A stretch of 17,595 nt of DNA, taken from assembly GCA_018648945.1 (NCBI GenBank), contig JABGQJ010000079.1:1-17595 (forward strand), read 5' to 3'. Both the position numbers and the translations under genes were made by a program. The notes under the pieces are model-generated. The model ran no database searches, was not told where the DNA came from, and saw only the letters and a program-made list of their open reading frames with translations. This stretch comes from Victivallales bacterium (GTDB lineage Bacteria > Verrucomicrobiota > Lentisphaeria > Oligosphaerales > Lenti-02). Shown piece by piece: positions 2 to 17,408 of the stretch. The first letter of the stretch is position 1, and each line of letters opens with the position of its first letter.

Positions 2-1183
2 GGCCCCTGCATCGCCAAGAAGGTGGAGGCGGACCAACACCCAGATCTGCTCGATATCGCCATCAGTTTCCTTGATCTTCGCCAGTGGCTGGAGGCCGAG
101 AGCATCCTCCCCATTACGCTGACTCCGACCGCCGAGGACGTCTTCCGCCCCGAGCCGGCTCGTGAGGGGGCCCTCTACCCCGTGGATGGCGGCATGATCG
201 CGGGCATCAAGGCCAACTGCGCGGTGGACGATGCCGGGTTCATGGTCCTGTCCGGGTTCGAGGCCGTGCGAGAAGCTCTCCAGGAACTGGATGTCATTCA
301 GCTCAAGAAGCCCCTGTTCCTTGAACTCCTCGCCTGCGAGGGCGGCTGCGTGAACGGCCCCCAGACCACCGAGGCCGGCGCCACCGTGCTCAAGCGCTGC
401 CAGGTCTTCGACTACGCCGAATACAGCACCGAGGAATTCCCCCGCGAGCCGACTGTGGATGCTGCCCTGGATCGCTTCACAACCCCGGCCGAGGAGAGCG
501 GATACACCGATCGCGAGTTGCGGGAGGCCCTCGCCACGGTTGGCAAGTACCGACCCGATGACGAACTGAACTGCAGCGGTTGCGGCTACGCCAATTGCCG
601 TGACTTCGCGGCGGCCCTGCTAGCCGGCAAGGCCGAGACAACCATGTGCGTCTCCTACATGCGCCAACTGGCTCAGAAGAAGGCCAACGCCTTGATCCAG
701 GCCATGCCCTCAGGCGTCTTGATTGTCAATGCCGACCTCAGTGTCGTGGAATGCAACCGACGCCTGGCGGAGATTCTGGGCGGCGAACTCCCCGATATCT
801 ACGACGCGCGTCCTGGCCTCGAAGGGGCGGCGGCCGATCGCGTGGCGCCTTTCCTCATCCGGCATATCCGCAAGGTGCTGGAGACTGGCGAGGACATCGT
901 GGGGCACGATGTGCGCCACCAGGGCGCGGTGTACCATCTGTCGGTCTTCGCCATTGAGGCCGGCCGCATTGCCGGGGCGGTGATCCAGGACGTGACCGCC
1001 CCTGCCGTGCACAAGGATCGGGTAGTCCACAAGGCGCAGGAAGTGATTCACCGGCAGATGCAGACCGTCCAGAAGATCGCCTATCTGCTCGGTGAGAATG
1101 CGGCGGAGTCTCAGGTGAGCCTGAACGCGATCATCGAGTCCTTCTCCACCAGCAAAGGCGAGGAGGAACCCGACGATGGCTGA
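2..1183 (+). CDS. Putative sensory [FeFe]-hydrogenase (H-cluster C-terminal domain + 4Fe-4S + PAS), 5'-truncated
   Basis: The reading frame is open from base 2, so the gene starts before the window; the GTG at 23 is internal. The first residues, GPCIAKK, are the second H-cluster motif of [FeFe]-hydrogenases. ACEGGC (codons around 332-349) is the third motif, with two cluster cysteines. Counting from the codon at 23, C184, C187, C192 and C209 form a Fes4-type 4Fe-4S site, residues about 222-330 look like a PAS domain, and the tail is helical. This layout, followed by an overlapping phosphatase gene, matches the group C (HydS-like) hydrogenases thought to sense H2 rather than turn it over in bulk. 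Electron input and the first H-cluster motif lie outside the window. The family call is strong; the sensory role is inferred from the PAS domain and the neighbour. Confidence 0.88.
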   Translation, partial: GPCIAKKVEADQHPDLLDIAISFLDLRQWLEAESILPITLTPTAEDVFRPEPAREGALYPVDGGMIAGIKANCAVDDAGFMVLSGFEAVREALQELDVIQLKKPLFLELLACEGGCVNGPQTTEAGATVLKRCQVFDYAEYSTEEFPREPTVDAALDRFTTPAEESGYTDRELREALATVGKYRPDDELNCSGCGYANCRDFAAALLAGKAETTMCVSYMRQLAQKKANALIQAMPSGVLIVNADLSVVECNRRLAEILGGELPDIYDARPGLEGAAADRVAPFLIRHIRKVLETGEDIVGHDVRHQGAVYHLSVFAIEAGRIAGAVIQDVTAPAVHKDRVVHKAQEVIHRQMQTVQKIAYLLGENAAESQVSLNAIIESFSTSKGEEEPDDG

Positions 1184-2372
1184 GCGCGACCTCTTCGTGG
1201 AAGTGGAGCATTTCCAGGCCTGCAAGCACCGCGAACCGGTGTCCGGCGATGTTTTTCTCACCCGCAAGGTGCGCCGCGACGACCGCTTGGTCTCGGTGCT
1301 GGCCGATGGTCTGGGCAGCGGCGTCAAGGCCAACGTGCTGGCCACCCTGACCAGCACCATGGCCCTGGAATTCGTGGCCGATGGCACCGATATCGGCCTC
1401 GCCGCCAGGACCGTGATGGACGTGCTGCCCATCTGCCGCGTGCGCCAGATCGCCTATTCCACCTTCACCATCGTCGATATCGTTGGCGGTCGGCACGTGC
1501 GGGTCATCGAGCATGAGAATCCGCCCTTCTTCGTCCTGCGTGGCGATCAGGTCCTCGAGCCTGAGCGCAAGCGCATCCCCGTGCCCGCCGGCATCGGCAA
1601 TGTGCCGCGCGAAAGGGAGCTGGAAGTGGCCTGCTTTGAGGCCAAGGACGGAGACCGGCTCGTTTACTTCTCGGACGGGGTGAACCAATCGGGCATGGGC
1701 GAGGAAGGCACCCCGCTTGGGCTCGGCAGCGAGGCCGTTACGGAGTTCGCCCGCCATCTCGTGCGCGCCAACCCCAACCTCTCCGCTCGGGAACTGGCCC
1801 GGCGCATCGTCGATCTTGCCACCGCCAAAGATGGGGGAACCCCGCGCGACGACATCAGTTGCGCTGTCGCCTACTTCCGGCAACCCCGCCATCTTCTGCT
1901 TGCCACCGGTCCCCCATTCTCCGAGAAGAGTGATATCCAGATGGCCGAGACCGTGGCCGAGTTCGATGGCGCCCGCCTTGTCTGCGGCGGCACAACCGCC
2001 GCCATTGTGGCCCGGGAACTGGGGCGCCCTGTGACCATGGATCTAGAGTTCCTCGACGAGGACATCCCCCCCATCTCCCGCATGGAAGGTGTCAACCTCG
2101 TTACCGAAGGCACGATCACCGTCGCCCGTGTGCTGGACATGCTGGAGCGCGACATCAATCCCGACCACGAGCCACGCAATGGGGCCACCCTCGCCCTCGA
2201 ATACCTGCTGAACAGCGACCTTATCCACTTCCTCGTCGGCACCCGCATCAACGAGGCCCACCAGGACCCCAACATCCCCGCCGAACTCGACCTCCGCCGC
2301 AACCTCATGAAGCGCATTGCCGCCCTTCTCGAGGAACGCCACCTCAAGGAGACCCGCATCCAGTACATCTAG
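1176..2372 (+). CDS. SpoIIE-family (PP2C-like) serine/threonine phosphatase, hydrogenase-linked
   Basis: A 398-residue protein. It shows PPM/SpoIIE features: SGD (D25), ADGLGSG (43-49, D44), FSDGV (D167) and PRDD (D225/D226), the acidic residues that hold catalytic Mn/Mg. Residues 1-235 are the phosphatase domain. Residues about 237-398 form a second module that I cannot name, with GGTTAAIVARELGR near its start and a helical C-terminus. The ATG at 1176 overlaps the hydrogenase stop by 8 nt, which implies translational coupling. Cytoplasmic SpoIIE phosphatases act on phosphoserine partners such as anti-sigma antagonists; no kinase, STAS protein or sigma factor is in view. The likely job is to carry the output of the upstream PAS-hydrogenase. 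The phosphatase domain is secure; the target is unknown. Confidence 0.88.
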   Translation: MAERDLFVEVEHFQACKHREPVSGDVFLTRKVRRDDRLVSVLADGLGSGVKANVLATLTSTMALEFVADGTDIGLAARTVMDVLPICRVRQIAYSTFTIVDIVGGRHVRVIEHENPPFFVLRGDQVLEPERKRIPVPAGIGNVPRERELEVACFEAKDGDRLVYFSDGVNQSGMGEEGTPLGLGSEAVTEFARHLVRANPNLSARELARRIVDLATAKDGGTPRDDISCAVAYFRQPRHLLLATGPPFSEKSDIQMAETVAEFDGARLVCGGTTAAIVARELGRPVTMDLEFLDEDIPPISRMEGVNLVTEGTITVARVLDMLERDINPDHEPRNGATLALEYLLNSDLIHFLVGTRINEAHQDPNIPAELDLRRNLMKRIAALLEERHLKETRIQYI

Positions 2373-6464: not shown

Positions 6465-7469
6465 GTGAATAGCTTCGAGCGCTACGCTGCCACCATCGCC
6501 GGGAAGCCCACGGACTTCCTGCCCCGCGTGCCCATCCTGATGCAGTTTGCCGCCGAGCATATTGGCTCGAACTACGGGGCGTTCGCCGCGGACTACCGGG
6601 TGCTTGCTGATGCCAATCTGCGCTGTCGTGAGGACTTTGGTTTTGAGCAGGTGAGCTGCATCTCCGACTCGTACCGCGAGACGCAGGGCTTCGGGGCCGA
6701 GGTCGAATACATGCGGGATTCGGCGCCGCGCTGCCTGGCGCCCCCGTTGGAGTTCAGCAAGGATCTGTCGTTGCTCGCCATGCCCGACCCGCTGGTCTCG
6801 GAGCGGATGCTGGACCGCGTCAACGCGGCCCGTGAGATGAAGGCCCAGGTCGGCGACGGATGTTCCGTGCTTGGCTGGATCGAGGGGCCTGGGGCGGAGG
6901 CGGCGGATGTGCGCGGGGTGATGAATTTCCTCATCGACACCATGGATGATGTGCCTTTCTGCCGTGAACTGATGGATCGCTGCGTGGAGGTCGGCATCGC
7001 CTTCGCCAAGGCCCAGATCGAGGCAGGAGCGGACACCATCGGGGTCGGCGATGCCATCGCCAGTCAGGTCACGCCCGACTTCTACCATGCCGAGATCCAG
7101 CCTCGGGAACTGCGGCTCGTGCAGGCCATTCACGACATGGGGGCTTGGGTCAAGCTCCACATCTGCGGCGACATCACCCAGTTGCTGCCTGGCATCGCCG
7201 GACTGGCGCTCGACATCCTGGACGTGGACTACATGGTGGACCTACAGACCGTGCGCCAGGCCGTGGGCACGGGCGTCACCATCGCCGGCAACATCGATCC
7301 GGTCGCCATCGTCTACCAAGGCACCCCGGCCGGTATTTGCCTTGCCATCGAGCATTGCTACGAGATCGTCGGCAATCCCTTCATGGTCAACGCCGGCTGC
7401 GAGATTCCTCCGGGCACACCGGTCGAGAACTTCCGCGCCTTCTGCCAACCCATACCCTACCGGAGCTAG
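6465..7469 (+). CDS. Uroporphyrinogen decarboxylase-family (MtaA/CmuA-like) methyltransferase-type protein
   Basis: A 334-residue TIM-barrel protein of the UroD superfamily. LHICGD (H232, C234) and NAGCEIP (C312) make the H-x-C...C zinc site of the MtaA/MtbA/CmuA branch, which moves methyl groups between corrinoid proteins and thiols or folate; true HemE lacks this site. Other family features are GWIEGP near 137 and the AGADTIGVGD strand near 187-196. The GTG start is supported by AGGAGA 8 nt upstream. No corrinoid-binding protein or substrate-specific methyltransferase adjoins it, so the substrate is unknown. Its stop overlaps the stop of the convergent permease gene. A second family member begins at 17502. 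Confidence 0.88.
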   Translation: MNSFERYAATIAGKPTDFLPRVPILMQFAAEHIGSNYGAFAADYRVLADANLRCREDFGFEQVSCISDSYRETQGFGAEVEYMRDSAPRCLAPPLEFSKDLSLLAMPDPLVSERMLDRVNAAREMKAQVGDGCSVLGWIEGPGAEAADVRGVMNFLIDTMDDVPFCRELMDRCVEVGIAFAKAQIEAGADTIGVGDAIASQVTPDFYHAEIQPRELRLVQAIHDMGAWVKLHICGDITQLLPGIAGLALDILDVDYMVDLQTVRQAVGTGVTIAGNIDPVAIVYQGTPAGICLAIEHCYEIVGNPFMVNAGCEIPPGTPVENFRAFCQPIPYRS

Positions 7470-8506
7470 CGCTCGAAGTCGATCCTGGGATCGATCATCA
7501 CGTAGCAGAAGTCGGAAAGAACGTTGCCGAGGAGCGCGAGCACGGAGGTGAGGGCCATCACGCACATGAACACGCCGTAGTCCCGATTGATAATCGCGTC
7601 GAGACCGAGTTGGCCCATGCCCGGGATGTCGAACAGGCGCTCGATGATGACCGACCCGGCGAACATGACGGTGAAGATGCGCCCGAAGCCCGTGGCGATG
7701 GGGATCATGGCATTGCGCAGGGCATGGCCCCAGATGGCGCGGGCCGAGCTGCCGCCCTTGGCGTAGACGGTGCGCACGTAGTCGGCCCCGATCTGGTCGA
7801 GCAGAGAGTTCTTCATCATCAAGGTGAGCACCGCAAAGCTGCTGGCGACGTAGCAGGCCACCGGTAGGAACATGTGCACGGTGATATCCTTGACCTTGCT
7901 CAGGAAGGGGAGGGTGTCGAAGTTGTCCGACTGGAAGCCACCCACGGGGAAGAAGTCCCACATTCCCTCGACCGTGCCGCAGAGAAGCATCTTCAGCACC
8001 ATGCCAAAGGCGAAGGCCGGGATCGAGTAGCCCACGAAAACGACGATGCTGGACATCACGTCGAAGGGGCCGCCATGGCGGAGTGCCTTGACGATCCCCA
8101 GAGGGATGCAGACCAAGTAGGAGAGCATGAACCCAGTCAGGCCGAAGATGATGGAAACAGGCAGGCGACTGCGGATGACCTCCCAGGCCGGCTTCTTGTA
8201 CTGGAAGGACTTCTTGCGCATGCCGACCCGGTCGCGCACCAGCCAGTGCCAGTAGCGGACGGGGAGTGGCTTGTCGAACTCGTAGTATTTGCGGATTTCC
8301 TGGCGTTGCTTCTCGGACACCCCATCTCCCGCCGCCGCGAGGGGACCGCTCTCGCCCCCACCCCCCATGCCGCGCATGGCGCGGATGGTCTGTTCCACCG
8401 GGCCGCCTGGGACGAGATGGACAATGCCGTAGCACAGCATGGTGATGACCAGAAAGGTCGGGATCACCAGGACGAGACGACGGATGAAGTAGGTGAGTCG
8501 GTCCAT
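7466..8506 (-). CDS. ABC transporter permease, YejB/DppB-like (peptide-type), without its partners
   Basis: A 346-residue inner-membrane permease of the binding-protein-dependent peptide/microcin C class. It has an N-terminal TM (about 6-30) and then VPGGPVEQ (32-39), the YejB hallmark. The periplasmic loop carries a glycine-rich insert. Further TMs follow, and the EAA-type loop ADYVRTVYAKG...HALRNAMIP spans 241-269 and would contact the ATPase. The ATG at 8506 (MDRLTYF) has GGGA a few bases upstream; ATGs at 8518 and 8539 would add 4 and 11 residues but lack a ribosome-binding site. yejB normally sits with yejA, yejE and yejF. None is here: downstream is a convergent unrelated gene and upstream is structured non-coding DNA. 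It could serve a transporter encoded elsewhere or be a relic, though the frame is intact. Confidence 0.87.
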   Translation of the reverse strand: MDRLTYFIRRLVLVIPTFLVITMLCYGIVHLVPGGPVEQTIRAMRGMGGGGESGPLAAAGDGVSEKQRQEIRKYYEFDKPLPVRYWHWLVRDRVGMRKKSFQYKKPAWEVIRSRLPVSIIFGLTGFMLSYLVCIPLGIVKALRHGGPFDVMSSIVVFVGYSIPAFAFGMVLKMLLCGTVEGMWDFFPVGGFQSDNFDTLPFLSKVKDITVHMFLPVACYVASSFAVLTLMMKNSLLDQIGADYVRTVYAKGGSSARAIWGHALRNAMIPIATGFGRIFTVMFAGSVIIERLFDIPGMGQLGLDAIINRDYGVFMCVMALTSVLALLGNVLSDFCYVMIDPRIDFER

Positions 8507-8611
8507 ATGGGTTCCCATGGGGACGAGGGATCGTGGCACGCCGGAAAGATAGCGTCGCTTGTCCGGAATTTCCCACTTGCTGCCAGGGATGTGTGGAGGA
8601 GGGGAACGGAA

Positions 8612-8642
8612 ACGGGCCGCCAGGGGATTCCTGGCGGCCCGT
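8612..8642 (-). terminator. Strong 13-bp hairpin, intrinsic terminator of the minus-strand operon
   Basis: ACGGGCCGCCAGG (8612-8624) and CCTGGCGGCCCGT (8630-8642) pair perfectly over 13 bp around the loop GGATT. Read on the minus strand, the hairpin is followed by TTTCCGTTCC, a modest T-rich tail; the plus-strand side has none. It should end transcripts arriving from the operon at 12406-8845, about 200 nt after its last stop, and insulate yejB. Confidence 0.7.
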
Positions 8643-8718
8643 GTGGAGGGTGTGTGTGGTGTGGCTCTAGCCTGGCTTACCCATGCGAATCTACTGCGAA
8701 TCCGGATTGCACTATGTC

Positions 8719-8795
8719 TCAGCCCGTTGTGTCAGAACGCCGATCTTGACGGGTTCCAACACGCCTGCGCCCGGCAACCTGGCACAGCGGGCTGA
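8719..8795 (+). ncRNA. Candidate structured RNA element closed by a 17-bp helix
   Basis: TCAGCCCGTTGTGTCAG (8719-8735) pairs with CTGGCACAGCGGGCTGA (8779-8795) over 17 bp. The only two departures from Watson-Crick pairing, at 8727/8787 and 8732/8782, are G.U pairs on the plus strand; on the minus strand they would be A.C mismatches. Inside lie a symmetric AAC/AAC internal loop and GCCG/CGGC (8739-8742 with 8772-8775), then a possible CGGG/CCTG stem (8750-8753 with 8764-8767). No promoter or known RNA family is recognised. It could also be an inverted repeat acting as DNA. Confidence 0.4.
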
Positions 8796-8836
8796 TCCAC
8801 AGCGCACTACGCGTTCTCGCTACGAAGCGCATGGAT
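8795..8836. repeat. Imperfect hairpin just downstream of the minus-strand operon
   Basis: ATCCA (8795-8799) pairs with TGGAT (8832-8836), GCGC (8802-8805) with GCGC (8827-8830), and GCG with CGC around TTCT (8811-8820), separated by internal loops. It ends 9 nt from the stop of the small thioredoxin gene, so it may be a 3'-end stabiliser of that mRNA. Confidence 0.3.
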
Positions 8837-8844
8837 AATCCGGG

Positions 8845-9114
8845 CTAGGCTTCGGCTTCCTTGCGGATGGCGTTGACCAAGGCCGATTTCAGGGGGGCGA
8901 AGCCAGCGGAGGCGGTCTTGCCATTGATCATCACCATGGGGCTGGCGACGGCTCCGTAGGGCGCGGCCTCGGGGGTGCCGATGAAGATCTCCTTGAAGGT
9001 TGTCGCCACGCCACTTTCAACGGCGGCTTCCTCCATGGTGGCCTTCGCCTTCAGGCACTTCTTGCACGGCGGGTGGCGGTGCACAAGGACCAGTTCGACC
9101 GCTGGGGCGCTCAT
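8845..9114 (-). CDS. Small thioredoxin-fold protein with CxxC (redox-active disulfide type)
   Basis: An 89-residue cytoplasmic protein with no signal peptide. LVLVHRHPPCKKCLKAK carries the active-site CxxC (C17 and C20) after the first strand. GAVASPMVMINGK has the Ser-Pro that supplies the cis-proline, followed by the usual INGK strand. This is the compact MTH895/thioredoxin_3 type, often found beside UPF0718 permeases, one of which lies in this operon. The ATG at 9114 overlaps the stop of the upstream lipoprotein gene (ATGA), so it is translationally coupled and the last gene of the operon. The longer frame to 9171 overlaps the upstream gene by 61 nt and reads as low-complexity. It probably reduces or relays thiols or metal for its membrane partners; the exact role is unknown. 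Confidence 0.85.
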   Translation of the reverse strand: MSAPAVELVLVHRHPPCKKCLKAKATMEEAAVESGVATTFKEIFIGTPEAAPYGAVASPMVMINGKTASAGFAPLKSALVNAIRKEAEA

Positions 9115-9605
9115 TTTCCGGCCTTCGCCAGTGCCTGGTCCACTGCCGCCTTGAGGTCCTCGGCGGCCCATTCGCCCTTGCTCAGGCCCTTGGTGAAGGA
9201 AACGGATTCCTTCTTGCCGTCGCGGGCGATCTCGATGATGTGATCGCCGTTGATCGTCACGCCGGCGCAGGAGAGTCCGGCAGCCTTCTTGAGGGCGCGG
9301 CCCTCTTCGTGGCGCCAGTCGACAACCCGGACATGGACCTTGTCGGGGTACTGCTTGAGCAACGCCTTGATGGCCCCCAGGGTCTCCTCGTGTCCGCCAG
9401 GATAGTAGGCGACAACCTTGATCGGCGCCGCTTCGGGACCGGCAGCGAAGTCGCAGTATTCCTCGCCGCCGCCCGCGTTCGCGGCCATCTCTGCGGGGTT
9501 CGTGGTGGCGTCTCCTGCCGGTTGATCTTGCTCCTTCTTGCAGCCGGTGACGGCCAGGGTGATTCCCAGGGCGAGAGCGGGGAGGATGTGTGTCCAGGTC
9601 TTCAT
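9111..9605 (-). CDS. Thioredoxin-like lipoprotein lacking an active-site CxxC
   Basis: A 164-residue protein. The signal peptide ends in the lipobox VTGC (C22), followed by a flexible linker to about residue 48. A thioredoxin-like core follows: strand PIKVVAYYP (61-69), helix, strand VHVRVV, and GLSCAGVTING (110-120). The place of CxxC reads GGHEET, with no cysteine. Where thioredoxins have Ser-Pro (cis-Pro) this protein has Cys-Ala (C113). The only other mature cysteine is C51. It resembles the lipoprotein at 11870-12406 closely enough to be a paralogue. AGGAGA lies 8 nt before the ATG, and 31 nt separate it from the upstream gene. It probably sits at the periplasmic face of a membrane as a non-catalytic carrier, adaptor or metal-binding subunit; this is inferred. 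Confidence 0.78.
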   Translation of the reverse strand: MKTWTHILPALALGITLAVTGCKKEQDQPAGDATTNPAEMAANAGGGEEYCDFAAGPEAAPIKVVAYYPGGHEETLGAIKALLKQYPDKVHVRVVDWRHEEGRALKKAAGLSCAGVTINGDHIIEIARDGKKESVSFTKGLSKGEWAAEDLKAAVDQALAKAGK

Positions 9606-9636
9606 GCGGGTGTCTCCTGTGTGTTACTTCTCGGAT

Positions 9637-10464
9637 CTACTTCTGATCCTTGGTTCCCAGAGATGGGAGGTCGTACTTGCGGAACACGGCCTGTCCTTCT
9701 TCGGACACGAGGAATTCGAGGAATTCCTGTGCCTTGGCAGGATTCGTGGCTTTGACCATGGCTGCTGCTGTGGCGTAGGCCGGACCGTAGAGATCCTCGG
9801 GGACTTCTTCGAGAATCCGCACTCGGGAGTACTGGAGTTTGTCTGGCGCAGTTTTCAAGGGGCAGGAGCGGTAGGCGAAGCTGGCATCGGCCTTGGCGCG
9901 GGAGACGTGAGCATAGGTATCGCTGGCGCTGCCGGTGATGACGATCTTGTCCTGCAGCTTGTCCCAGAGGCCTTTCTTGACCAGCGCTTCCTTGGTGTAG
10001 CGCCCGATGGACGTCTTCTCCGGATCGGCCACGGCAACGATGGTGACGGAGTCTTGCAGCAGGCTGTCCATGTTGGTTACCTTGCCCTTGTTGGCGCGAG
10101 GCACGAACAGCATGAGGTCGTAGACGCCAAAGGGAACCAGCTCACTCTTGGTGACTAGGCCCGCCTCGATGAGTCCCTCCAATTCCACCCCGCCGGGGGA
10201 GACGACGACGTCTGGCCGGAGGCCGTCGAAGATCTGCTTGGCAGTGGCGTGGGCCACCGCGAGTTCTACTCGCGCATCCAGGCCTGGGTTCTTCTTCTCG
10301 AAGATCTGGGCCAGTTCGTCCATCGGCATTTCCATGCCGCATGGCGCGAGGATGAGCAGCGTGTTCGGCGCCTGCTTCTGTTGCTCGGGCTTCTTGCCGC
10401 AGCCCGCCAGGGCGATGGCGGCGACGAGGAGGGAGACGCGGACGGTCAGAGTTGGCAATTGCAT
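9637..10464 (-). CDS. ModA-like ABC substrate-binding lipoprotein, ligand unknown
   Basis: A 275-residue protein with lipobox ALAGC (C22). The mature part has the two-lobe layout of ModA/WtpA-type binding proteins: LLILAP strand, helix ELAQIFEKKNPG, QIFDGLRPDVVVSPG, the GLVTKSELVPFGVYDLMLFVP hinge region, and a C-terminal AQEFLEFLVSEEGQAVFRKY helix. ModA proteins usually show an Ala-Ser-rich loop that holds the oxyanion after the first strand. Here the loop reads PCGMEMPM (41-48), with one Cys and three Met, and a second mature Cys is at 201. The ligand may therefore be a soft metal or an altered oxyanion. The ATG at 10464 overlaps the permease gene by 19 nt; the ATG at 10479 has a poorer site. 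The ABC permease and ATPase are in the divergent operon. Confidence 0.85.
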   Translation of the reverse strand: MQLPTLTVRVSLLVAAIALAGCGKKPEQQKQAPNTLLILAPCGMEMPMDELAQIFEKKNPGLDARVELAVAHATAKQIFDGLRPDVVVSPGGVELEGLIEAGLVTKSELVPFGVYDLMLFVPRANKGKVTNMDSLLQDSVTIVAVADPEKTSIGRYTKEALVKKGLWDKLQDKIVITGSASDTYAHVSRAKADASFAYRSCPLKTAPDKLQYSRVRILEEVPEDLYGPAYATAAAMVKATNPAKAQEFLEFLVSEEGQAVFRKYDLPSLGTKDQK

Positions 10465-11873
10465 ATGTAGGCACCCCATTCCGAACCAAAGAACCAGCCT
10501 GTAAGAGAGGCCAGCACGACGATGCTGGCCACGTAGACGGACAGACGTTTCCAGCCGATCTCCCGGACGACGATGATCATGCCCGGCAGGCTGAGACCGG
10601 GAGCAGTCAGCAGCAGCGCCATGCCCGGCCCGATCCCCATGCCCATGACCTTGAGCATGGCCTTGACAAAGGGCACCTCAGTCAGGATGGGGAAGTACAT
10701 GAACGCGCCGAACGTGCCGCTGGCCAGACTCTCGGTGAAGCTGCCGGCGCCACCCAGCCAGCGAGTGGCGGTGAGTGGCACGTACTGGGCTATGAAGCCG
10801 ATGAGAAGCACGGCCGGGATGAGGATTGGGATCACCTTCATGAGCAGGCTACCTGTCTGCCGCGCCCACATCTCCACATGATCGCGCCCAAGCCCGAAGG
10901 CCGAAACAAGGACCAGGGCGAGCACGGCGGGGAGAGTGAGGAGCAGAGCCCACTTCAGTCCCAGTTCGAACGAGCCCACCACCAGTAGGTAGAGGAGAAG
11001 GAGGAGGACGCTGGCGGTGGTGCGGCCGGATGGTCCCATGGACAATACGCCCGCGGGTGCGTTGGCCGCCGCATAGTCATGCTTCCGCTCGCCGAAGATC
11101 CGGGCCATGAGCAGGCCAACGATGAGCGCGATCACGCCCACTGACAGGACTCGAAAGACGCCGATGCTCGTGCCGATCACCCGGCAGGTGAAGGCCGTGG
11201 AGACCAGGTTGATCGCCGGGCCCGCGTAGAGGAAGGCAAAGGCCGGGCCGATCCCCGCACCCCCGGCCCAGATGCTGACGAAGAGCGGCACCACATTGCA
11301 GGAGCAGAGGCTGAGCACCATGCCACTGGCGATGGCCGCTCCGTAGGCCAAGGGTTTGGGCGCGGCAGGACCCAATAGGCGCAGCAGGTACTGGCTGGGC
11401 ACAAAGGCCGTGATCGCGGCACCGAGCAGGAATGCAGGGAGCATGACGGTCAGCACCGACCAGCTCAGCACGCAGCAGGCAAAGATGTCGAGAACCCCAT
11501 TGAGCGTGGTGACGGCAGGGGTGAACTCGACCTCCATTTTCTCCGGCAGTCCCGCCCCATCCTGGAACACGAGGGGCTCCTCAAGTGGGTCGAACCCCTC
11601 TGCCAGCACGCTCAACGTGAGCCCGTCCAGGTTCTTGGGAAGCTCGCTGAACGGGATCACCAGTTCGAAACTGCCGTCTTGCTGCAAGGGGGCGAAGCGC
11701 GAGTCGAAGGTGTCCTCGTGGCCTTGCTGCCGCAGTTCCACTTGGCCGTTGACGACGCCACTCTTGGTGACCGCCTCGGGGGCGTGCCCATGCAAGGTGA
11801 GAGTGGGACCGGCGGCCTGGGCTGCCGCCAAGCCGCACAGCAGCGTGAACAGAGTGATCAGCTGCCGCATCAT
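10446..11873 (-). CDS. UPF0718/ArsP-type membrane permease with N-terminal periplasmic domain
   Basis: A 475-residue protein. Residues 1-20 are a signal peptide (AQA cleavage), and residues 21-120 form a beta-rich domain of carboxypeptidase-regulatory character. The multi-TM permease runs from about 128 to 462. Family hallmarks are LCSCNVVPLF (189-198, CxC at C190/C192), LYAGPAIN (215-222), and FPILTEVPFVKAMLK with the TAPGLSLPGM loop (394-431). The protein ends in CNCQL. Relatives move metals or metalloids (organoarsenicals by ArsP, Cu/Zn in SO_0444-like proteins), using the conserved cysteines. Two ATGs at 11873 and 11870 overlap the upstream stop (ATGATGA). GAGGG lies 4 nt before the first and 7 nt before the second, so the second may be used. 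Family call firm; substrate unknown. Confidence 0.88.
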   Translation of the reverse strand: MMRQLITLFTLLCGLAAAQAAGPTLTLHGHAPEAVTKSGVVNGQVELRQQGHEDTFDSRFAPLQQDGSFELVIPFSELPKNLDGLTLSVLAEGFDPLEEPLVFQDGAGLPEKMEVEFTPAVTTLNGVLDIFACCVLSWSVLTVMLPAFLLGAAITAFVPSQYLLRLLGPAAPKPLAYGAAIASGMVLSLCSCNVVPLFVSIWAGGAGIGPAFAFLYAGPAINLVSTAFTCRVIGTSIGVFRVLSVGVIALIVGLLMARIFGERKHDYAAANAPAGVLSMGPSGRTTASVLLLLLYLLVVGSFELGLKWALLLTLPAVLALVLVSAFGLGRDHVEMWARQTGSLLMKVIPILIPAVLLIGFIAQYVPLTATRWLGGAGSFTESLASGTFGAFMYFPILTEVPFVKAMLKVMGMGIGPGMALLLTAPGLSLPGMIIVVREIGWKRLSVYVASIVVLASLTGWFFGSEWGAYICNCQL

Positions 11874-12406
11874 GGAACCCTCTTCTTCGGTATACTCTCG
11901 ATGTTTGGCATGATCGGTGGCTTGGGCAGGTCGGGGGCCTTGTCCCCGGCCGCTTCCCGTCCGGCAGCGGCAAGGGCGCGGGCGACGTCCCGCGGATCCA
12001 TGACGCCTTCGAGGATGAACTTGCCGTCCTCGCCGCCCGTGTCGAAGGTGGTCTTGCCATTGACCATGACGGCGGCGCAGCGGATGCCGTTCGCTCGCAT
12101 GATCTCCTTGGCCTCAGGGCTCTTCATGGCCAGGATGCGCACTTGGTACACGTTTGGGAACTCGCGCGCCACCCTCGCCAGGTACTCGCCGATCACATCT
12201 TGGCACGCGTTGGTCACGGGCAGGAAAGTGACCACTCGCACGGGGGCCTCCTTGTTGCCAAGTTGACGGTCGAGGAAGGCGGCGAGTTTCGGCTCGGGCT
12301 TGTCCTCGTCCAACTGCTCCTGGCCCGTCGTGGGGGCGGGCTGGCAGGAGACAAGGCCGATGGCGAGAGCCGCGATGGCGAGAGGCCGAACAGTTGAGGA
12401 ATACAT
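11870..12406 (-). CDS. Thioredoxin-like lipoprotein with TxxC in place of CxxC
   Basis: A 178-residue protein with lipobox GLVSC (C21). The core starts at APVRVVTFLP (54-63). The active-site loop reads VTNACQD, so only the second cysteine position (C68) is kept. After FPNVYQVRIL and a helix comes GIRCAAVMVNGK (107-118), where Cys-Ala (C110) replaces the Ser-Pro of thioredoxins. A Pro-rich, Lys-ending tail (160-178) is unlike the family. It is the paralogue of the lipoprotein at 9111-9605. The ATG at 12406 is chosen for AAGG 8 nt upstream and for placing the signal peptide at the N-terminus; the frame to 12487 would bury it. It is the first gene of the minus-strand operon. A role as thiol or metal carrier for the adjoining permease is inferred. 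Confidence 0.8.
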   Translation of the reverse strand: MYSSTVRPLAIAALAIGLVSCQPAPTTGQEQLDEDKPEPKLAAFLDRQLGNKEAPVRVVTFLPVTNACQDVIGEYLARVAREFPNVYQVRILAMKSPEAKEIMRANGIRCAAVMVNGKTTFDTGGEDGKFILEGVMDPRDVARALAAAGREAAGDKAPDLPKPPIMPNIESIPKKRVP

Positions 12407-12432
12407 ATGCAATGCCTTTTTGCGTTCACCGT

Positions 12433-12461
12433 ACCATGGTGGGAAGGGCCAGTTGTGCCAA
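12433..12461 (-). promoter_or_regulatory. Candidate sigma-70 promoter for the minus-strand operon
   Basis: On the minus strand, TTGGCA (12461-12456, 5 of 6 to consensus) and CATGGT (12438-12433, 3 of 6) are spaced exactly 17 nt. Transcription would begin near 12426, leaving about 20 nt of leader that includes the AAGG site before the ATG at 12406. Confidence 0.35.
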
Positions 12462-12533
12462 CGAACAGCCACCGGCCGGATGGCCATTTCAACATTTCTT
12501 CACATGGCCTCCATCGTCGGGCCGGACTCGCGA

Positions 12534-12542
12534 TGGTATGCT
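12534..12542 (+). promoter_or_regulatory. Candidate extended -10 promoter for the plus-strand operon
   Basis: TGG-TATGCT has the extended -10 TGn and 4 of 6 -10 bases, with no good -35. A start near 12549 would leave about 48 nt of leader before the TTG at 12597. Confidence 0.3.
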
Positions 12543-12596
12543 GGCACACGTTGAGTACATGAACCAGCCATCACGATTTCAGTAAGGGGGTGGATC

Positions 12597-13820
12597 TTGG
12601 CAGACAAACCGCTGTTGAACCGGGCCAACCTAGTGTCGTCGGGTGTATTCGCGGCGCATGTGCTGTGGGTGCTCATGGGCTGGCTGGACGTGGGGACGGG
12701 CACCGTGCTGGCGTGCACGAACTCCTACGCCGTCCGCCAGGGCTTCCGGGTCCAGGAGGAATTCGGGGCCAAGAGGCTGAACTTCTACCTGACCGGCTTC
12801 TTCGTGCTCTTCATTCTCTTCGTGCCGATTGCCCAGTCGCCACTGCTCTTCGCCACCTTCGGCATGCTGTACGCCGCCGTGTTCCGGATTCCGCTCCTGC
12901 TCGGCTATCTGGTCGTCCTGATCGTGTCCATCGTCTTCGTGACGCCCTACTGGATTCAGACGACTCTTCTGCTCTGTCTGCTCTACACGGTTGTGGCCCC
13001 GATCTGGCCGGACCGGATGAAGCGCTTCCATCTGTTCTGCCTGGGCTTCGGTTTCCTGCTGGTGATCGCGATCATGTTGCCGCTCCTGTATCTCTGCTTC
13101 CAGGTGACGCCGCAGACGCTGATGACAAGCATGGCCGACGACGTGTTCCGGTCCGCCCTTCGCACCAGCTTGCTTACTGCCACTATCTCCACCGCCGTGG
13201 TCCTGCTCTTCGGCGTTCCCCTGGCCTACGCGATCGTTCGTCTCGACTTTGCCGGCAAGGGGCTCATCGAGAGCCTGATCGACCTGCCCATCGTGATTCC
13301 TCAGTCCGTGGCGGGCATCGCGATCATGGTCCTGCTCGGGCCGAAAACCCCGGTGGGCCTGTGGTTGGACAAGACCATGGGCGTCGAGGTCTCCGGCAGC
13401 ATGCTGGGCATTGTGCTCTGTCAGGTATTCGTCAGTTCGCCCTTCCTGATCCGCAGCGCGGCCAATGCCTTCCGCGACATGGGGCCTGCTTTGGAGAATG
13501 TGAGCCGCACCTTGGGGGCGGGGCCGGTGAGCACCTTCTTCCGGGTCAGCCTGCCCTTGGCGTCCGGCGGCATCTTCACCGGCTGCATCCTGTGCTGGGC
13601 GCGGGCGATCTCGGAGGTGGGCAGCCTGATGGTCATCGCCTACCACCCGTTTACCGTTTCGGTCTACACCTATGACCAGTTCGTGCAGTACGGCCTGCAG
13701 GAGGCGCGCCCCGCCGCCGTCCTGCTGGTCATCGTCTGCCTGTGGGGTTTCTTGATGTTGCGCTGGTTGCGAACCGCGACGCTTGGTCCGCTCTTTGGGG
13801 AAAGGAGGATCGGGCGATGA
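12597..13820 (+). CDS. ModB/WtpB-like ABC permease with a multi-TM N-terminal extension
   Basis: A 407-residue membrane protein. Residues about 184-395 are a normal oxyanion-type permease: DDVFRSALRTSLLTA, DLPIVIPQSVAGIAI (229-243), the EAA-type loop ENVSRTLGAGPVSTFFRVSLP (300-320), WARAISEVGSLMVIA and YTYDQFVQYGLQEARPAA, as in ModB/WtpB. Residues 1-170 add roughly four or five hydrophobic segments, including FYLTGFFVLFILFVPIA and IPLLLGYLVVLIVSIVFV, where ModB proteins (about 225-280 residues) have almost nothing. I recognise no family for that part. The start is a TTG at 12597, preceded by AAGGGGG. The gene overlaps the ATPase gene by 4 nt. Its binding protein is probably the ModA-like lipoprotein of the divergent operon. 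Confidence 0.85.
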   Translation: MADKPLLNRANLVSSGVFAAHVLWVLMGWLDVGTGTVLACTNSYAVRQGFRVQEEFGAKRLNFYLTGFFVLFILFVPIAQSPLLFATFGMLYAAVFRIPLLLGYLVVLIVSIVFVTPYWIQTTLLLCLLYTVVAPIWPDRMKRFHLFCLGFGFLLVIAIMLPLLYLCFQVTPQTLMTSMADDVFRSALRTSLLTATISTAVVLLFGVPLAYAIVRLDFAGKGLIESLIDLPIVIPQSVAGIAIMVLLGPKTPVGLWLDKTMGVEVSGSMLGIVLCQVFVSSPFLIRSAANAFRDMGPALENVSRTLGAGPVSTFFRVSLPLASGGIFTGCILCWARAISEVGSLMVIAYHPFTVSVYTYDQFVQYGLQEARPAAVLLVIVCLWGFLMLRWLRTATLGPLFGERRIGR

Positions 13821-14893
13821 TTCGCGTAGACCGACTCTCACGCACGTGGGGCGACTTTTCGCTCAAGGAAGTCTCGCTGGAAGTGAACGGCAGCGAGTAT
13901 TTCGTCATTCTCGGCCCGTGCGGCTCGGGGAAGACCCTGTTGCTGGAGACCATTGCCGGACTCTATACCCTGCCCCGGGGGCGCGTCCTGATCGGTGGCC
14001 GTGAGGTGACCGACTTGCCGCCGGAGCGCCGCAGTGTGGGCCTGGTGTATCAGCAATACGCCCTGTTCCCACATCTCTCGGTACGCACCAATATCGGCTT
14101 CGGTTTGCGCTACACCAAGCTTGGCAAGGCTGAACGGCAGCAGCGGATCGACGAGATGATCGAGCTGTTCGGCATCGAGGATTTGGCCGGTCGGCGCACC
14201 CCCTCTTCCCTGAGCGGCGGTGAAGCCCAGAAGGTCGCCCTGGCCCGGGCCCTGGCGATCCGGCCGGAAGTCCTGCTGCTGGACGAGCCGCTTTCCTCGC
14301 TGGATCAGCGGGCGCGGGAGAAGGTCATCGCCATACTCCCCCGGATCACCGAAGAGCTTGCCGTTCCCGTGATTCACGTGACCCACCACTACTCCGAGGC
14401 CACCGCCCTTGCCGACCGGGTCGGCATCATGCGCAACGGCGTGTTGGAGCAGGTGGGAGGGGTCAGTGAGGTCTTCCGGCATCCGGCCAATGCCTTTGTG
14501 GCCGACTTTCTCGGCGTCTCCAACGTCAAGGAAGCCACGGTGGAATCGACCAACGGCGACCGCTCCACCGTTCGACTTTGTGGTGGTGTCGCCCTGCTGG
14601 CCGCGAATCCGGGCCACTTGGCCGGTGTGGTCGCGCTCTGCGTCCGCCCCGATGACATTCTCCTCACGACGGGGACGTCTGCAACGGCAGACACGCTGTC
14701 TGGCCGGTTGGCCGGCCTGCGTGATCTGGGGTTCACCACCGTGCTGGATGTGGATACCGCTGCTGGCCGCTTCGAGGTCACGCTGCCCGAGAGCGCGGTG
14801 GCTGGGATGCGACTCGCCCTTGGCGACACGGTCTGCCTTGAGTTGCCCGCCGACCGCCTCCACCTCATGGCTCTGGACGAGGACTCGCCCTAA
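13817..14893 (+). CDS. ModC/FbpC-like ABC transporter ATPase
   Basis: A 358-residue cytoplasmic ATPase. It has Walker A GPCGSGKT (33-40, with Cys where Ser, Asn or Thr is common), Q-loop VYQQYALFPHLS (Q80), signature LSGGE (132-136), Walker B LLLDEP (153-158), D-loop SSLD and the switch His in VTHHYSEA (H190). Residues from about 232 on, starting at FLGVSNVKEATV, form a TOBE-type regulatory domain usual for oxyanion and iron importers. AGGAGG 8 nt upstream of the ATG at 13817 settles the start over the longer frame to 13742. The start overlaps the permease stop (ATGA) and the stop overlaps the next start (TAATG), so it belongs to the same transcript. All nucleotide-handling motifs are present, so it should be active. 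Confidence 0.93.
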   Translation: MIRVDRLSRTWGDFSLKEVSLEVNGSEYFVILGPCGSGKTLLLETIAGLYTLPRGRVLIGGREVTDLPPERRSVGLVYQQYALFPHLSVRTNIGFGLRYTKLGKAERQQRIDEMIELFGIEDLAGRRTPSSLSGGEAQKVALARALAIRPEVLLLDEPLSSLDQRAREKVIAILPRITEELAVPVIHVTHHYSEATALADRVGIMRNGVLEQVGGVSEVFRHPANAFVADFLGVSNVKEATVESTNGDRSTVRLCGGVALLAANPGHLAGVVALCVRPDDILLTTGTSATADTLSGRLAGLRDLGFTTVLDVDTAAGRFEVTLPESAVAGMRLALGDTVCLELPADRLHLMALDEDSP

Positions 14894-15894
14894 TGAGATT
14901 TGACGTACCTCTCTTCAAGATCAGCCAGCGTGCCATTCTGCCGATCGAGAAGTTCTGGATTGATGCTGCGCCGTTCGTGATCTTCTTCTGCATCCTGATT
15001 GCGGCCCATGTCCTCTTGCACCGCGGCAAGCGCGTGCAGCTTTGGCGGCGAGTCTCCCAGACCGTGTCGGCCTTCGTCTTCATCATCTTCCTGCATCGCT
15101 GCCTCTGCATGTTGCGCGGTTGGATCTTCGCGCTGAACAAGGTGGGCCGCAACGATATTGTGGCCTTTGGGCATCTCTGCATGTTTGTCCTGCTCGTCTC
15201 GCTCACCCTATCCTTTGGCCGGCTGTTCTGCGGCTGGCTGTGCCCGTTGGGGTTCTTCAGCGAGATACTCAGCCTGCCGTCCCGAAGGCGAAGTCGGCTG
15301 CCCACTGGGCGTCGGTTGCTCTCCGGGTATCTCATGTTGGGCGGGGTGACCATCCTGGTGGCGTGGCTGGGCTGGCTGGTGCGGCCGGGAACCCAGTTCT
15401 TCTCGGAGAACGTATCCGCTCTCTGGGGCGCCTTTCTGCTGCTGTTCCTGGGGCTGGTGTTGCCCTTTGAGCGCAAGGACCGGTTCTTCAAGAAGTTCAA
15501 GTACGTCTCGGTCATCCTCTGGCTGGGCCTGTCGGTGATCGGCGTCTTTGTGACCAGCCCCTGGTGTACCTTCTTCGGGGACGAGATCGACTACTCCAGC
15601 GCCGTTTCGCTGGCGGCGGTCCTGGCCGGGGCGCTGGTGGTGCCCATGGCCTGGTGCCGGTACATGTGCCCCATGGGGGGCGCCCTGGGCTGGCTGACCC
15701 GGTTCAGCACGATCCGGGTCCGGATGACCGGGGAGTGCACCAACTGCGGCGGTTGCGACAGCACCTGCCCCATGGGGGCGCTGGATCGCGGGGACGTGGA
15801 TGGCTCCAGCTGCATCTACTGTGGCCAGTGCAACCAAGTCTGCGACTACCGGTTTGTGACCGAGACTAGCAAGGACAAGGGAGACGAGGCATGA
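14893..15894 (+). CDS. NapH/NosR/CcoG-like membrane polyferredoxin
   Basis: A 333-residue inner-membrane iron-sulfur protein with several TM segments (about 24-42, 56-72, 92-110, 143-163, 176-190, 205-222, 236-254). Two CxxxCP motifs, FCGWLCPLG (C113, C117) and WCRYMCPMG (C255, C259), are the NapH/NosR signature. They are followed by two ferredoxin clusters: CTNCGGCDSTCP (C282, C285, C288, C292) and CIYCGQCNQVCD (C307, C310, C313, C317). Such proteins pass electrons across or along the membrane to periplasmic enzymes. No reductase for nitrate or nitrous oxide is in view. Here it lies between an ABC ATPase (1-nt overlap) and a beta-propeller gene (4-nt overlap), so it probably supplies or drains electrons for this locus. 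Family call secure; partner inferred. Confidence 0.9.
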   Translation: MRFDVPLFKISQRAILPIEKFWIDAAPFVIFFCILIAAHVLLHRGKRVQLWRRVSQTVSAFVFIIFLHRCLCMLRGWIFALNKVGRNDIVAFGHLCMFVLLVSLTLSFGRLFCGWLCPLGFFSEILSLPSRRRSRLPTGRRLLSGYLMLGGVTILVAWLGWLVRPGTQFFSENVSALWGAFLLLFLGLVLPFERKDRFFKKFKYVSVILWLGLSVIGVFVTSPWCTFFGDEIDYSSAVSLAAVLAGALVVPMAWCRYMCPMGGALGWLTRFSTIRVRMTGECTNCGGCDSTCPMGALDRGDVDGSSCIYCGQCNQVCDYRFVTETSKDKGDEA

Positions 15895-17408
15895 AACGAC
15901 TGATCCTTGCCCTTTCTCTGCTGACCATCTGGCTACCTGCTCAGGACAAGCCCCCCCAGTTTGAGTGGCCCATGTTCCGGGGCGATCCGTCCCGGAGCGG
16001 CAAGGCACCACTGAACTTGGACGCCGCACCCTACCGCCATCTCTGGACCTTTGATCTGGGCACCCATACCTGGAAATACTGCCAGGGCGCCAGTGTCTGG
16101 AGCAGCAATGCGGTCAGCGCCGTGATCGATGGCAAGCTGCGCATCTTCGTGGGCACCTACGACCACAATGTCTACTGCCTGGACCCGGAGAACGGCAAGG
16201 AGCTTTGGCGCTTCACGACCGGTTGCCTGATCAAGGCGTCCCCGGCGTTCGCCTGGGTCAATGGCGAGCCCATGCTGTTCGTGGCCTCCAGCGACCGGTG
16301 CTTCTACGGGCTGAATGCGCGGACCGGCAAGAAGATGTGGAACTTCGAGACCTACTCCTGGACCTACACGATCGGCGAGAGCATGTCGGGATCCCCCCTC
16401 GTGGTCGAGGTCGACGGCAAGTCCGTGCTTTACGCCACCATGTGGAATGGCGACCGCCGGCCCGGGCGCACGACCCAAAACGGTGAACTGTTCTCCATCG
16501 ACGCCGCCACCGGGACCCCCAACTGGCGCGAGCGCATCACCAGCGGGCATCTCTCAACCCCCACGTTCTTCCGCATCAAGAAGAACAAGAAGGACCCCGG
16601 CAAACCCATGATCTACCTAGGCGCGGAGGACGGCAACCTCTATGCCTGCGACGCGCGCACCGGCCAGGTGTCCTGGCGGTACCTCACCGACCATCGAGTC
16701 GATGCGGCGCCACTGGTGGCCACCATCGCCGGGTCGCCAGTCGCCTTCGTGGCCAACGCCTGGGGTATGGTGCGCGCGCTGCACGCCGAGACGGGGAGCC
16801 CACTTTGGGAGTACAAGGCCGGGCACGAGATCCTGTCAACGCCCGTGCTCTTCAAGGCCGGGAACAAGCTGTTGCTGGTGGTTGGCTCCTCCGACCGCTG
16901 CGTGCATGCCATCGAGGCCAAGGCGGGAGACGAAGTATGGAAGTTCCAGACTGGCAAGTATGTGGTCGCCTCTCCTGCTGTGGCCAACATCAACGGTCGC
17001 CCCGCTGTCTTTGTGTGCTCGTTGGACAACAAGCTCTACGTGCTCGATGGCGAAACCGGTTGCCGCCTGATGGACTTTGCCTCCGGCAATATGCTCTGGC
17101 CCTACGAGACCCGCGGCGCGTCCCTCTGGTCGTCGCCCTCACTGCACCAACGGGACAGCGGCGAAGCCCTGTTGCTCTATCCGGCCCATGACGGCAAGCT
17201 CTACGCCTTTACGCAAGGCGGCATGGATCAGCCGCGCGCCGACGACGCGAGCCTGACCGGCTGGACCCCAGGGACCAAGCTGGACTTGACGAACTTGCCC
17301 CCTGTCTCCGACTTTGTCCGGACCGTTCCTCCCGTCATCGGTATCGCTCTCCTGCTGGTCGGCATGGTCATCGGCATCGCGCCCCGCCGCAGAACTGCGG
17401 ACGGCTGA
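15891..17408 (+). CDS. Exported, C-terminally anchored PQQ-like beta-propeller protein
   Basis: A 505-residue protein with a short signal peptide (1-17, ends WLPA) and an opening WPMFRGDPSRSG typical of this family. At least seven repeats of the form LDxxTGxxxWxF follow, for example near ENGKELWRFTTG, RTGKKMWNFE, ATGTPNWRER, RTGQVSWRYL, ETGSPLWEYK and AGDEVWKFQTG, which suits a seven- or eight-bladed propeller. A C-terminal TM (about 481-497) and the following RRR place the propeller in the periplasm. The repeats are structural: I see no PQQ-enzyme active site, so a scaffold or binding role like BamB or YxaL is as likely as catalysis. The start overlaps the polyferredoxin stop (ATGA), which suggests the two work together. 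Last gene of the operon. Confidence 0.88.
   Translation: MKRLILALSLLTIWLPAQDKPPQFEWPMFRGDPSRSGKAPLNLDAAPYRHLWTFDLGTHTWKYCQGASVWSSNAVSAVIDGKLRIFVGTYDHNVYCLDPENGKELWRFTTGCLIKASPAFAWVNGEPMLFVASSDRCFYGLNARTGKKMWNFETYSWTYTIGESMSGSPLVVEVDGKSVLYATMWNGDRRPGRTTQNGELFSIDAATGTPNWRERITSGHLSTPTFFRIKKNKKDPGKPMIYLGAEDGNLYACDARTGQVSWRYLTDHRVDAAPLVATIAGSPVAFVANAWGMVRALHAETGSPLWEYKAGHEILSTPVLFKAGNKLLLVVGSSDRCVHAIEAKAGDEVWKFQTGKYVVASPAVANINGRPAVFVCSLDNKLYVLDGETGCRLMDFASGNMLWPYETRGASLWSSPSLHQRDSGEALLLYPAHDGKLYAFTQGGMDQPRADDASLTGWTPGTKLDLTNLPPVSDFVRTVPPVIGIALLLVGMVIGIAPRRRTADG

Follow-up and report, generated by a model that had tools for sequence, protein, structure and literature searches.

A Divergent Nine-gene Locus of a Victivallales Bacterium: Two Separable Modules That May Act Together on a Soft Metal or Metalloid in the Envelope

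Gene Content and Architecture of the Locus

The 17,595-nucleotide stretch of Victivallales bacterium DNA analyzed here (contig JABGQJ010000079.1; "the window" below) holds a locus of nine genes, W1 to W9, that encode a small thioredoxin, two single-cysteine lipoproteins, a ModA-type binding lipoprotein, an ArsP/UPF0718 permease, the permease and ATPase of an ATP-binding cassette (ABC) transporter, a NapH-like iron-sulfur protein, and a β-propeller (Table 1). The locus consists of two modules, M1, the minus-strand operon of W1 to W5, and M2, the plus-strand operon of W6 to W9. All nine open reading frames (ORFs) are present and intact, with no internal stop, and six of the seven same-strand junctions are overlaps, which bears out the tightly packed divergent arrangement described in an earlier, sequence-only reading of this DNA. 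From W1 to W9, with gene starts chosen by lipobox and overlap, the junctions are an overlap of 4, a gap of 31, overlaps of 19 and 4, the divergent gap of 190, and overlaps of 4, 1, and 4 bp. The G+C content at third codon positions lies between 0.79 and 0.88 in every gene. As that reading also held, the components of the ABC transporter are divided between the strands, with the binding protein W3 on the minus strand and the permease W6 and ATPase W7 on the plus strand. Seven of the nine proteins reach a Pfam gathering score, namely W1, W3 (SBP_bac_11), W4, W6 (BPD_transp_1), W7 (ABC_tran, TOBE_2), W8, and W9, and the earlier assignments of W4 as a UPF0718 permease (ArsP_1), W8 as a NapH-like ferredoxin (Fer4_5), and W9 as a β-propeller (PF13570 and PF13360) stand on these scores. 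No sigma-70-like promoter was found between positions 8500 and 17595 (shuffle mean 0.9), and the 6 terminator-like sites in the same interval are at the level of shuffled sequence (5.7).

Table 1. Features of the divergent locus, in window positions
Feature	Position	Strand	Description	Basis
W1	8845-9114	-	Small CxxC thioredoxin (Thioredoxin_3); signal peptide not seen by eye	PF13192, CxxC
W2	9111-9605	-	Lipoprotein of a thioredoxin-like-looking family; one invariant Cys (C113), without CxxC	Alignment of 5
W3	9637-10464	-	ModA-fold binding lipoprotein; PCG and YRSC cysteines at the ModA ligand region	
W4	10446-11873	-	ArsP_1/UPF0718 permease of CC-CSCN-CxC subtype; N-terminal β-rich domain	PF03773, Cys conservation, AF2
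W5	11870-12406	-	Second lipoprotein with a single invariant Cys; W2 paralogue	
Divergent intergenic region	12407-12596	.	190 bp	
W6	12597-13820	+	WtpB/ModB-like ABC permease; TTG start; extra N-terminal part of ~140 residues	
W7	13817-14893	+	WtpC/ModC-like ABC ATPase with TOBE domain	
W8	14893-15894	+	NapH-like membrane Fe-S protein; HxCxCxxR signature	Fer4_5
W9	15891-17408	+	PQQ/BamB-like β-propeller; N terminus resembles a signal sequence by eye; VWSS- and LWSSP-type motifs conserved	PF13570, PF13360

The Minus-strand Module

W3 has the ModA fold and passes the molybdate-binding equivalog model TIGR01256 (108.4 against a cut-off of 62.5). At the positions of ModA S12 and S39, which we take to be ligand serines, the first is Gly in 46 of 46 relatives (G48 in W3), while the second is Ser in just 7 of 49 (A76 in W3), and two cysteines (C47 and C206 in W3) are invariant in the family (46/46 and 50/50 at the respective positions). 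Judged from these alignments, the W3-type family appears to be one that carries an automatic molybdate-binding name although two ligand positions have been changed and two cysteines gained. These features, together with the single-Cys lipoprotein domains that adjoin it or are fused to it, set W3 apart from the ModABC/WtpABC importers; the likeness to those importers lies in the W3 fold, in the families of W6 and W7, and in a WtpA-type gene that adjoins the permease gene of relatives. The import of oxyanions by ModABC, to which the sequence-only reading had pointed, is thus a poor guide to W3, even with the ligand tyrosine discussed below.

W4 belongs to ArsP_1 (PF03773) at 151.2 bits against a gathering cut-off of 32.3. 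Its AF2 model has a pLDDT of 90, and a fold search gave no match with E below 0.001. Among 119 relatives compared (120 listed of 451 matches, P0047 omitted), its six cysteines are conserved in 117-118 sequences, with both cysteines of the CSC motif in 118. With the ArsP/UPF0718 permeases of ars operons W4 shares the family and the C(S/T)C motif; unlike them, it adds the CC and C-terminal CxC pairs and an N-terminal β-rich domain and has other partner genes.

W1 is a Thioredoxin_3 protein (36 bits against a cut-off of 24.8) with CxxC in all five aligned sequences. W2 and W5, the "thioredoxin-fold lipoproteins" of the sequence-only reading, form one lipoprotein family (E 1e-9) with one invariant cysteine and no CxxC, and the thioredoxin fold of this family is unproven because neither protein matches a Pfam family at E 0.1 or an NCBIfam family above its cut-off. 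A W2-like domain is fused to a Cys-type ModA in three of the relatives' loci (numbered L; genomes are numbered G), L088 and L089 from Omnitrophota and L177 from the phylum of G295, which we take to be Armatimonadota from the name "Zipacnadia" in a locus title.

The Plus-strand Module and Its Recurrence

The label of a ModABC-like transporter holds for the presence of the ABC parts, but the best NCBIfam scores of W6 and W7 are for the tungstate families WtpB (251 bits over residues 147-393, cut-off 340) and WtpC (355 bits, cut-off 440), each below the equivalog cut-off. The N-terminal part of W6 aligns in relatives from Omnitrophota and Armatimonadota from residue 12-31 onward. Family scans of the window proteins found no WtpA-type binding protein in the window.

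W8 shares with the NapH/MauN ferredoxin-type proteins the Fer4_5 membrane domain and C-terminal 4Fe-4S motifs; it is NapH/NosR-like below the cut-offs (TIGR02163, 51.5 against 213) and differs from them in an HxCxCxxR signature. Its family, aligned as 58 of 59 strong rows (P0165 omitted), has a mean column identity of 52%, and the signature is present in 57 of the 58 rows compared with none of 85 generic NapH-like ORFs collected from 80 generic loci among the matches listed in a contig scan with the NapH alignment. The VWSS- and LWSSP-type motifs of W9 are conserved in an alignment of 10.

A search with the NapH-like profile at E 1e-30 in 968 genomes of three phyla identified a core of the plus-strand module in 12 genomes: 3 of 285 from Omnitrophota, 2 of 291 from the phylum of G295, and 7 of 392 from Planctomycetota, with G005, the center of the Omnitrophota sample, already known as a match before the sample was counted. 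In all 11 testable core loci the propeller gene comes directly after the NapH-like gene (L106 stops at a contig edge), and an ABC ATPase gene directly precedes the NapH-like gene in 8 of 10 (L103 and L104 are untestable), the exceptions being L105, where the ATPase gene is ~3.7 kb away, and L109, whose stretch has no ABC gene. In all 8 testable core loci the permease gene is preceded by one for a WtpA-type binding protein, judged mostly by BLAST similarity. The order of the plus-strand operon recurs in three sampled phyla and is thus beyond chance.

An HGD-D family gene occurs in L105 to L108 (the flank of L104 is cut), and, with a second polyferredoxin, it lies near the Planctomycetota cores at L108:7956-9209, L107:13588-14883, and L106:5628-6872; the L108 gene has double-cubane reductase as its best NCBIfam match, below the cut-off.

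Linkage of the Two Modules

M1 and M2 adjoin each other in the window and in the genomes of two Omnitrophota (L088 and L089), where WtpA, ModB, ModC, NapH-like, and propeller genes are followed on the same strand by a Thioredoxin_3 gene, a second Cys-type ModA, an ArsP with CC, CSCN, and CxC, and a fusion of ModA to a W2-like domain. The sequence-only reading had named a gene order kept in distant phyla as support for a single system, and Omnitrophota show such an order. With both modules in one strand run there, chance neighborhood is rejected as the main account, although the linkage is not universal.

A ModA profile at E 1e-25 matched only 4 of the 285 Omnitrophota genomes, two with canonical ModA and two with the Cys type, and the latter two, G005 and G105, are both core genomes. 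Were the two traits independent, such an overlap of 2 Cys-type ModA with 3 core genomes would have P = 3/40470, a figure from hand arithmetic that ignores kinship and the position of G005 as the center of the sample. Because ArsP_1 is widespread in Omnitrophota (78 of 285 genomes at E 1e-30), the presence of an ArsP says little, and the Cys subtype alone was used as evidence. In 20 loci inspected from 20 Omnitrophota genomes, both core-linked ArsP have CC, CSCN, and the C-terminal CxC, whereas the 18 others (from 76 other genomes matched) have CSCT and lack both CC and the C-terminal CxC. By a looser Cys pattern, the ArsP of L088, L089, L122, and L182 all have CC; an ArsP fragment of G502 (L126) adjoins a Clp-type ORF and was excluded from the count. 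G566 has both modules in one genome on separate contigs, with an ArsP that has CC and CSCN and no C-terminal CxC. Entries common to the homologue lists, which are supportive only, number 5 for ArsP and NapH (offset control mean 0.12, maximum 2) and 9 for ArsP and ModA (mean 0.17, maximum 1); for NapH and ModA there are 2, not above the control (mean 0.34, maximum 2).

A Possible Thiol Relay

At about even odds (a probability of roughly 0.5), M1 and M2 work as a single system that deals with a soft (thiophilic) metal or metalloid in the envelope. The lipid-anchored W3 would grip the substrate by its two cysteines where ModA would hold molybdate and, with the single-Cys partners W2 and W5, the CxxC thioredoxin W1, and the six-Cys ArsP-type permease W4, would form a relay of thiols that spans the inner membrane. 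W6 and W7, a Wtp-type ABC pair, would energize one transport step, W8 would pass electrons to the envelope side to reduce thiols or substrate, and the propeller W9 may dock or stabilize partners. From the observed gene content, gene order, conserved cysteines, fusions, and recurrence we infer binding of the substrate by cysteines, reduction of thiols or substrate by W8, and, with these, any direction of transport or identity of the substrate. The conserved Cys sites in W1, W3, W4, and W8 fit the proposal of the sequence-only reading that a metal or metalloid is handled in the envelope with thiols and electrons.

The leading candidate for the substrate is arsenic or an element of similar chemistry, in view of an ArsD gene in L187, aquaporin genes in L088, L089, and L180, and the place of ArsP and MIP channels among the five chief transporter families of ars operons (PMC4435449). 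The L187 gene (8604-8924, minus strand; Armatimonadota) encodes a true ArsD metallochaperone (98.1 bits against a cut-off of 90) and follows genes for a Cys-type ModA and a CC/CSCN ArsP. A small Cys-rich gene of L089 (13333-13662) considered as ArsD-like has no family match at E 0.001 and is not counted as evidence for arsenic. No Pfam match to ArsR, ArsB/Acr3, or ArsC was found among 15 window proteins scanned, so that the locus does not have the gene content of an ars operon.

The minus-strand module has further companions in other genomes. The M1 run of L187 includes additional thioredoxin-like ORFs and a CcdA-looking protein (by eye), which could replace W8 as the source of reductant. Free-standing lipoyl-type domain proteins lie beside M1 genes in two phyla (L180:11454-11693 and L088:6959-7210), and a carrier with a dithiol would suit such a relay. 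L180 also encodes a protein in which a MerR-family regulator is joined to a Thioredoxin_3 domain (8467-9252).

A still broader picture, and a distinctly more tentative one, is of a multi-phylum machine in which former molybdate binders have been rebuilt as Cys-clamp metalloid carriers that feed a thiol relay to the six-Cys permease, with re-reduction from the respiratory chain by the HxCxC NapH-like protein and replacement of the latter by other reductant modules in some lineages. No description of the M1 and M2 combination was found in the literature searched, a coverage that lacks most subscription journals.

Evidence Against the Relay and Alternative Readings

A number of observations weigh against such a system. 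The ligand tyrosine of ModA is retained in 50 of 50 W3-family sequences. Between W2/W5 and thioredoxins there is only a weak sequence match in the PDB (E 0.8), and hhalign gives a probability of 1.5 to the W1 family. Among the 13 M1 loci besides the window, ArsD occurs in one (L187) and aquaporin in the three named above, and the window has neither. Six of the 12 core proteins lack the HxCxC signature, namely that of L090 and the Planctomycetota ones of L104 to L108, so that M2 has subtypes, and four of those five Planctomycetota loci carry the HGD-D gene.

The modules also occur apart. A Cys-type ModA is lacking in 9 of the 12 core genomes, six of which have no match at E 1e-15 and three of which have matches without the Cys pair, a weak absence in draft genomes. 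In the phylum of G295, the ModA profile matched 86 of 291 genomes as compared with 2 that have the core, and in 11 genomes inspected there, from the best scores among those matched, every locus has a Cys-type ModA in a genome that lacks the NapH-like and propeller core. An ArsP is present in 8 of these 11 loci, in each case of the CC/CSCN type, a W2/W5-like domain in 9 (two of which served to train the profile), and a ModB-like permease in 3 (L181, L183, and L187). Since the core occurs without the Cys-type ModA and M1-type genes occur without the core, the nine genes are not an indivisible set; M1 and M2 are modules that can stand apart and that some lineages have united. Operons carried apart in related genomes, which the sequence-only reading had named as the sign of neighbors by chance, are thus in part observed.

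The strongest alternative, clearly less probable than the relay, treats the modules as separate: M2 would import tungstate or molybdate, with auxiliary electron transfer to serve Mo/W enzymes of the envelope, and M1 would be an ArsP-type thiol system of its own that adjoins M2 by chance. The WtpA-type gene before the ModB-like gene in every testable core argues for it, as do the cores without a Cys-type ModA match. Of three relatives tested against the WtpA model TIGR03730 (cut-off 242.75), L089 (247.6) and L102 (300.6) pass and L108 (152.9) does not; the permease-side binding protein of relatives being WtpA-type, the substrate of the ABC transporter may be an oxyanion, which again counts against the relay. 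Contrary to an independent M1 are the union of the modules in the window and in Omnitrophota, where the Cys-type ModA is confined to core genomes (2/285), and the ModB-like permeases that the coreless M1 loci L181, L183, and L187 have of their own.

An improbable reading is one built on likeness to the Sec-assisted organometallic (SAO) system (NCBIfam NF040727-NF040736), which includes two ABC binding proteins with Sec, SaoB and SaoX, and the thioredoxin-like SaoT (PMC13188914). An ABC transporter with Cys/Sec binding proteins, an ArsP-type permease, and a thioredoxin-like protein are common to that system and the locus; SaoE is the top NCBIfam model for W4 and for the permeases of L089 and L181 (69-82 bits), and W7 weakly matches SaoA. 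These scores are far below the cut-offs (69.4 against 325 for W4 and SaoE, 141.7 against 360 for W7 and SaoA), which rules out membership in SAO; the locus reaches no tested Sao cut-off and has ModA/Wtp-type ABC, NapH-like, and propeller parts. SaoB, SaoX, SaoC, and SaoT are not among the NCBIfam matches of W1 to W5 and W9 at E 0.1, and the 15 window proteins scanned have no MerB-type Pfam match.

Least probable of all is the assembly of a periplasmic metal-sulfur or metal center, as by NosDFY/NosR or Fet/FtrD-type systems of an ABC transporter, polyferredoxin, and thiol proteins, for which the NapH/NosR-like character of W8 and homologous MacB/FtsX-type ABC genes in the M1 loci L088 and L177 speak, and against which it counts that neither the window nor, on inspection by eye, L088 and L089 showed a recognizable client metalloenzyme gene. 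The MacB/FtsX-type permease genes, with ATPase genes, lie at L088:2041-3411 and L177:11872-13143. The ABC type also differs from that of NosFY. The Campylobacter iron uptake cluster fetMP-fetABCDEF (1649-1656), which unites permeases and an ATPase of an ABC transporter with thioredoxins and a Cys-rich membrane protein and is conserved in multiple phyla (PMC6083913), favors this reading by analogy only; the ABC type is another one, and no P19- or Ftr1-type protein is among the Pfam matches of the window.

Neighboring Genes in the Window

Downstream of the minus-strand operon lies a gene for a DppB-like ABC permease (7469-8539, minus strand; BPD_transp_1) with no partner ABC gene adjoining it in the window. 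Convergent with it is a gene for a URO-D family protein (6465-7469, plus strand), possibly a methyltransferase relative. Farther away (23-2372, plus strand), a gene for an Fe-hydrogenase-like Fe-S/PAS protein is followed by one for a SpoIIE-type phosphatase, possibly a redox-sensing pair.

Implications

If the thiol relay is real, a protein family given a molybdate-binding name by an automated model (TIGR01256) would have another job. The cargo of UPF0718/ArsP permeases with paired cysteines would become directly testable with one purified protein, and the NapH-like iron-sulfur protein would gain a link to metal or metalloid transport in little-studied phyla.

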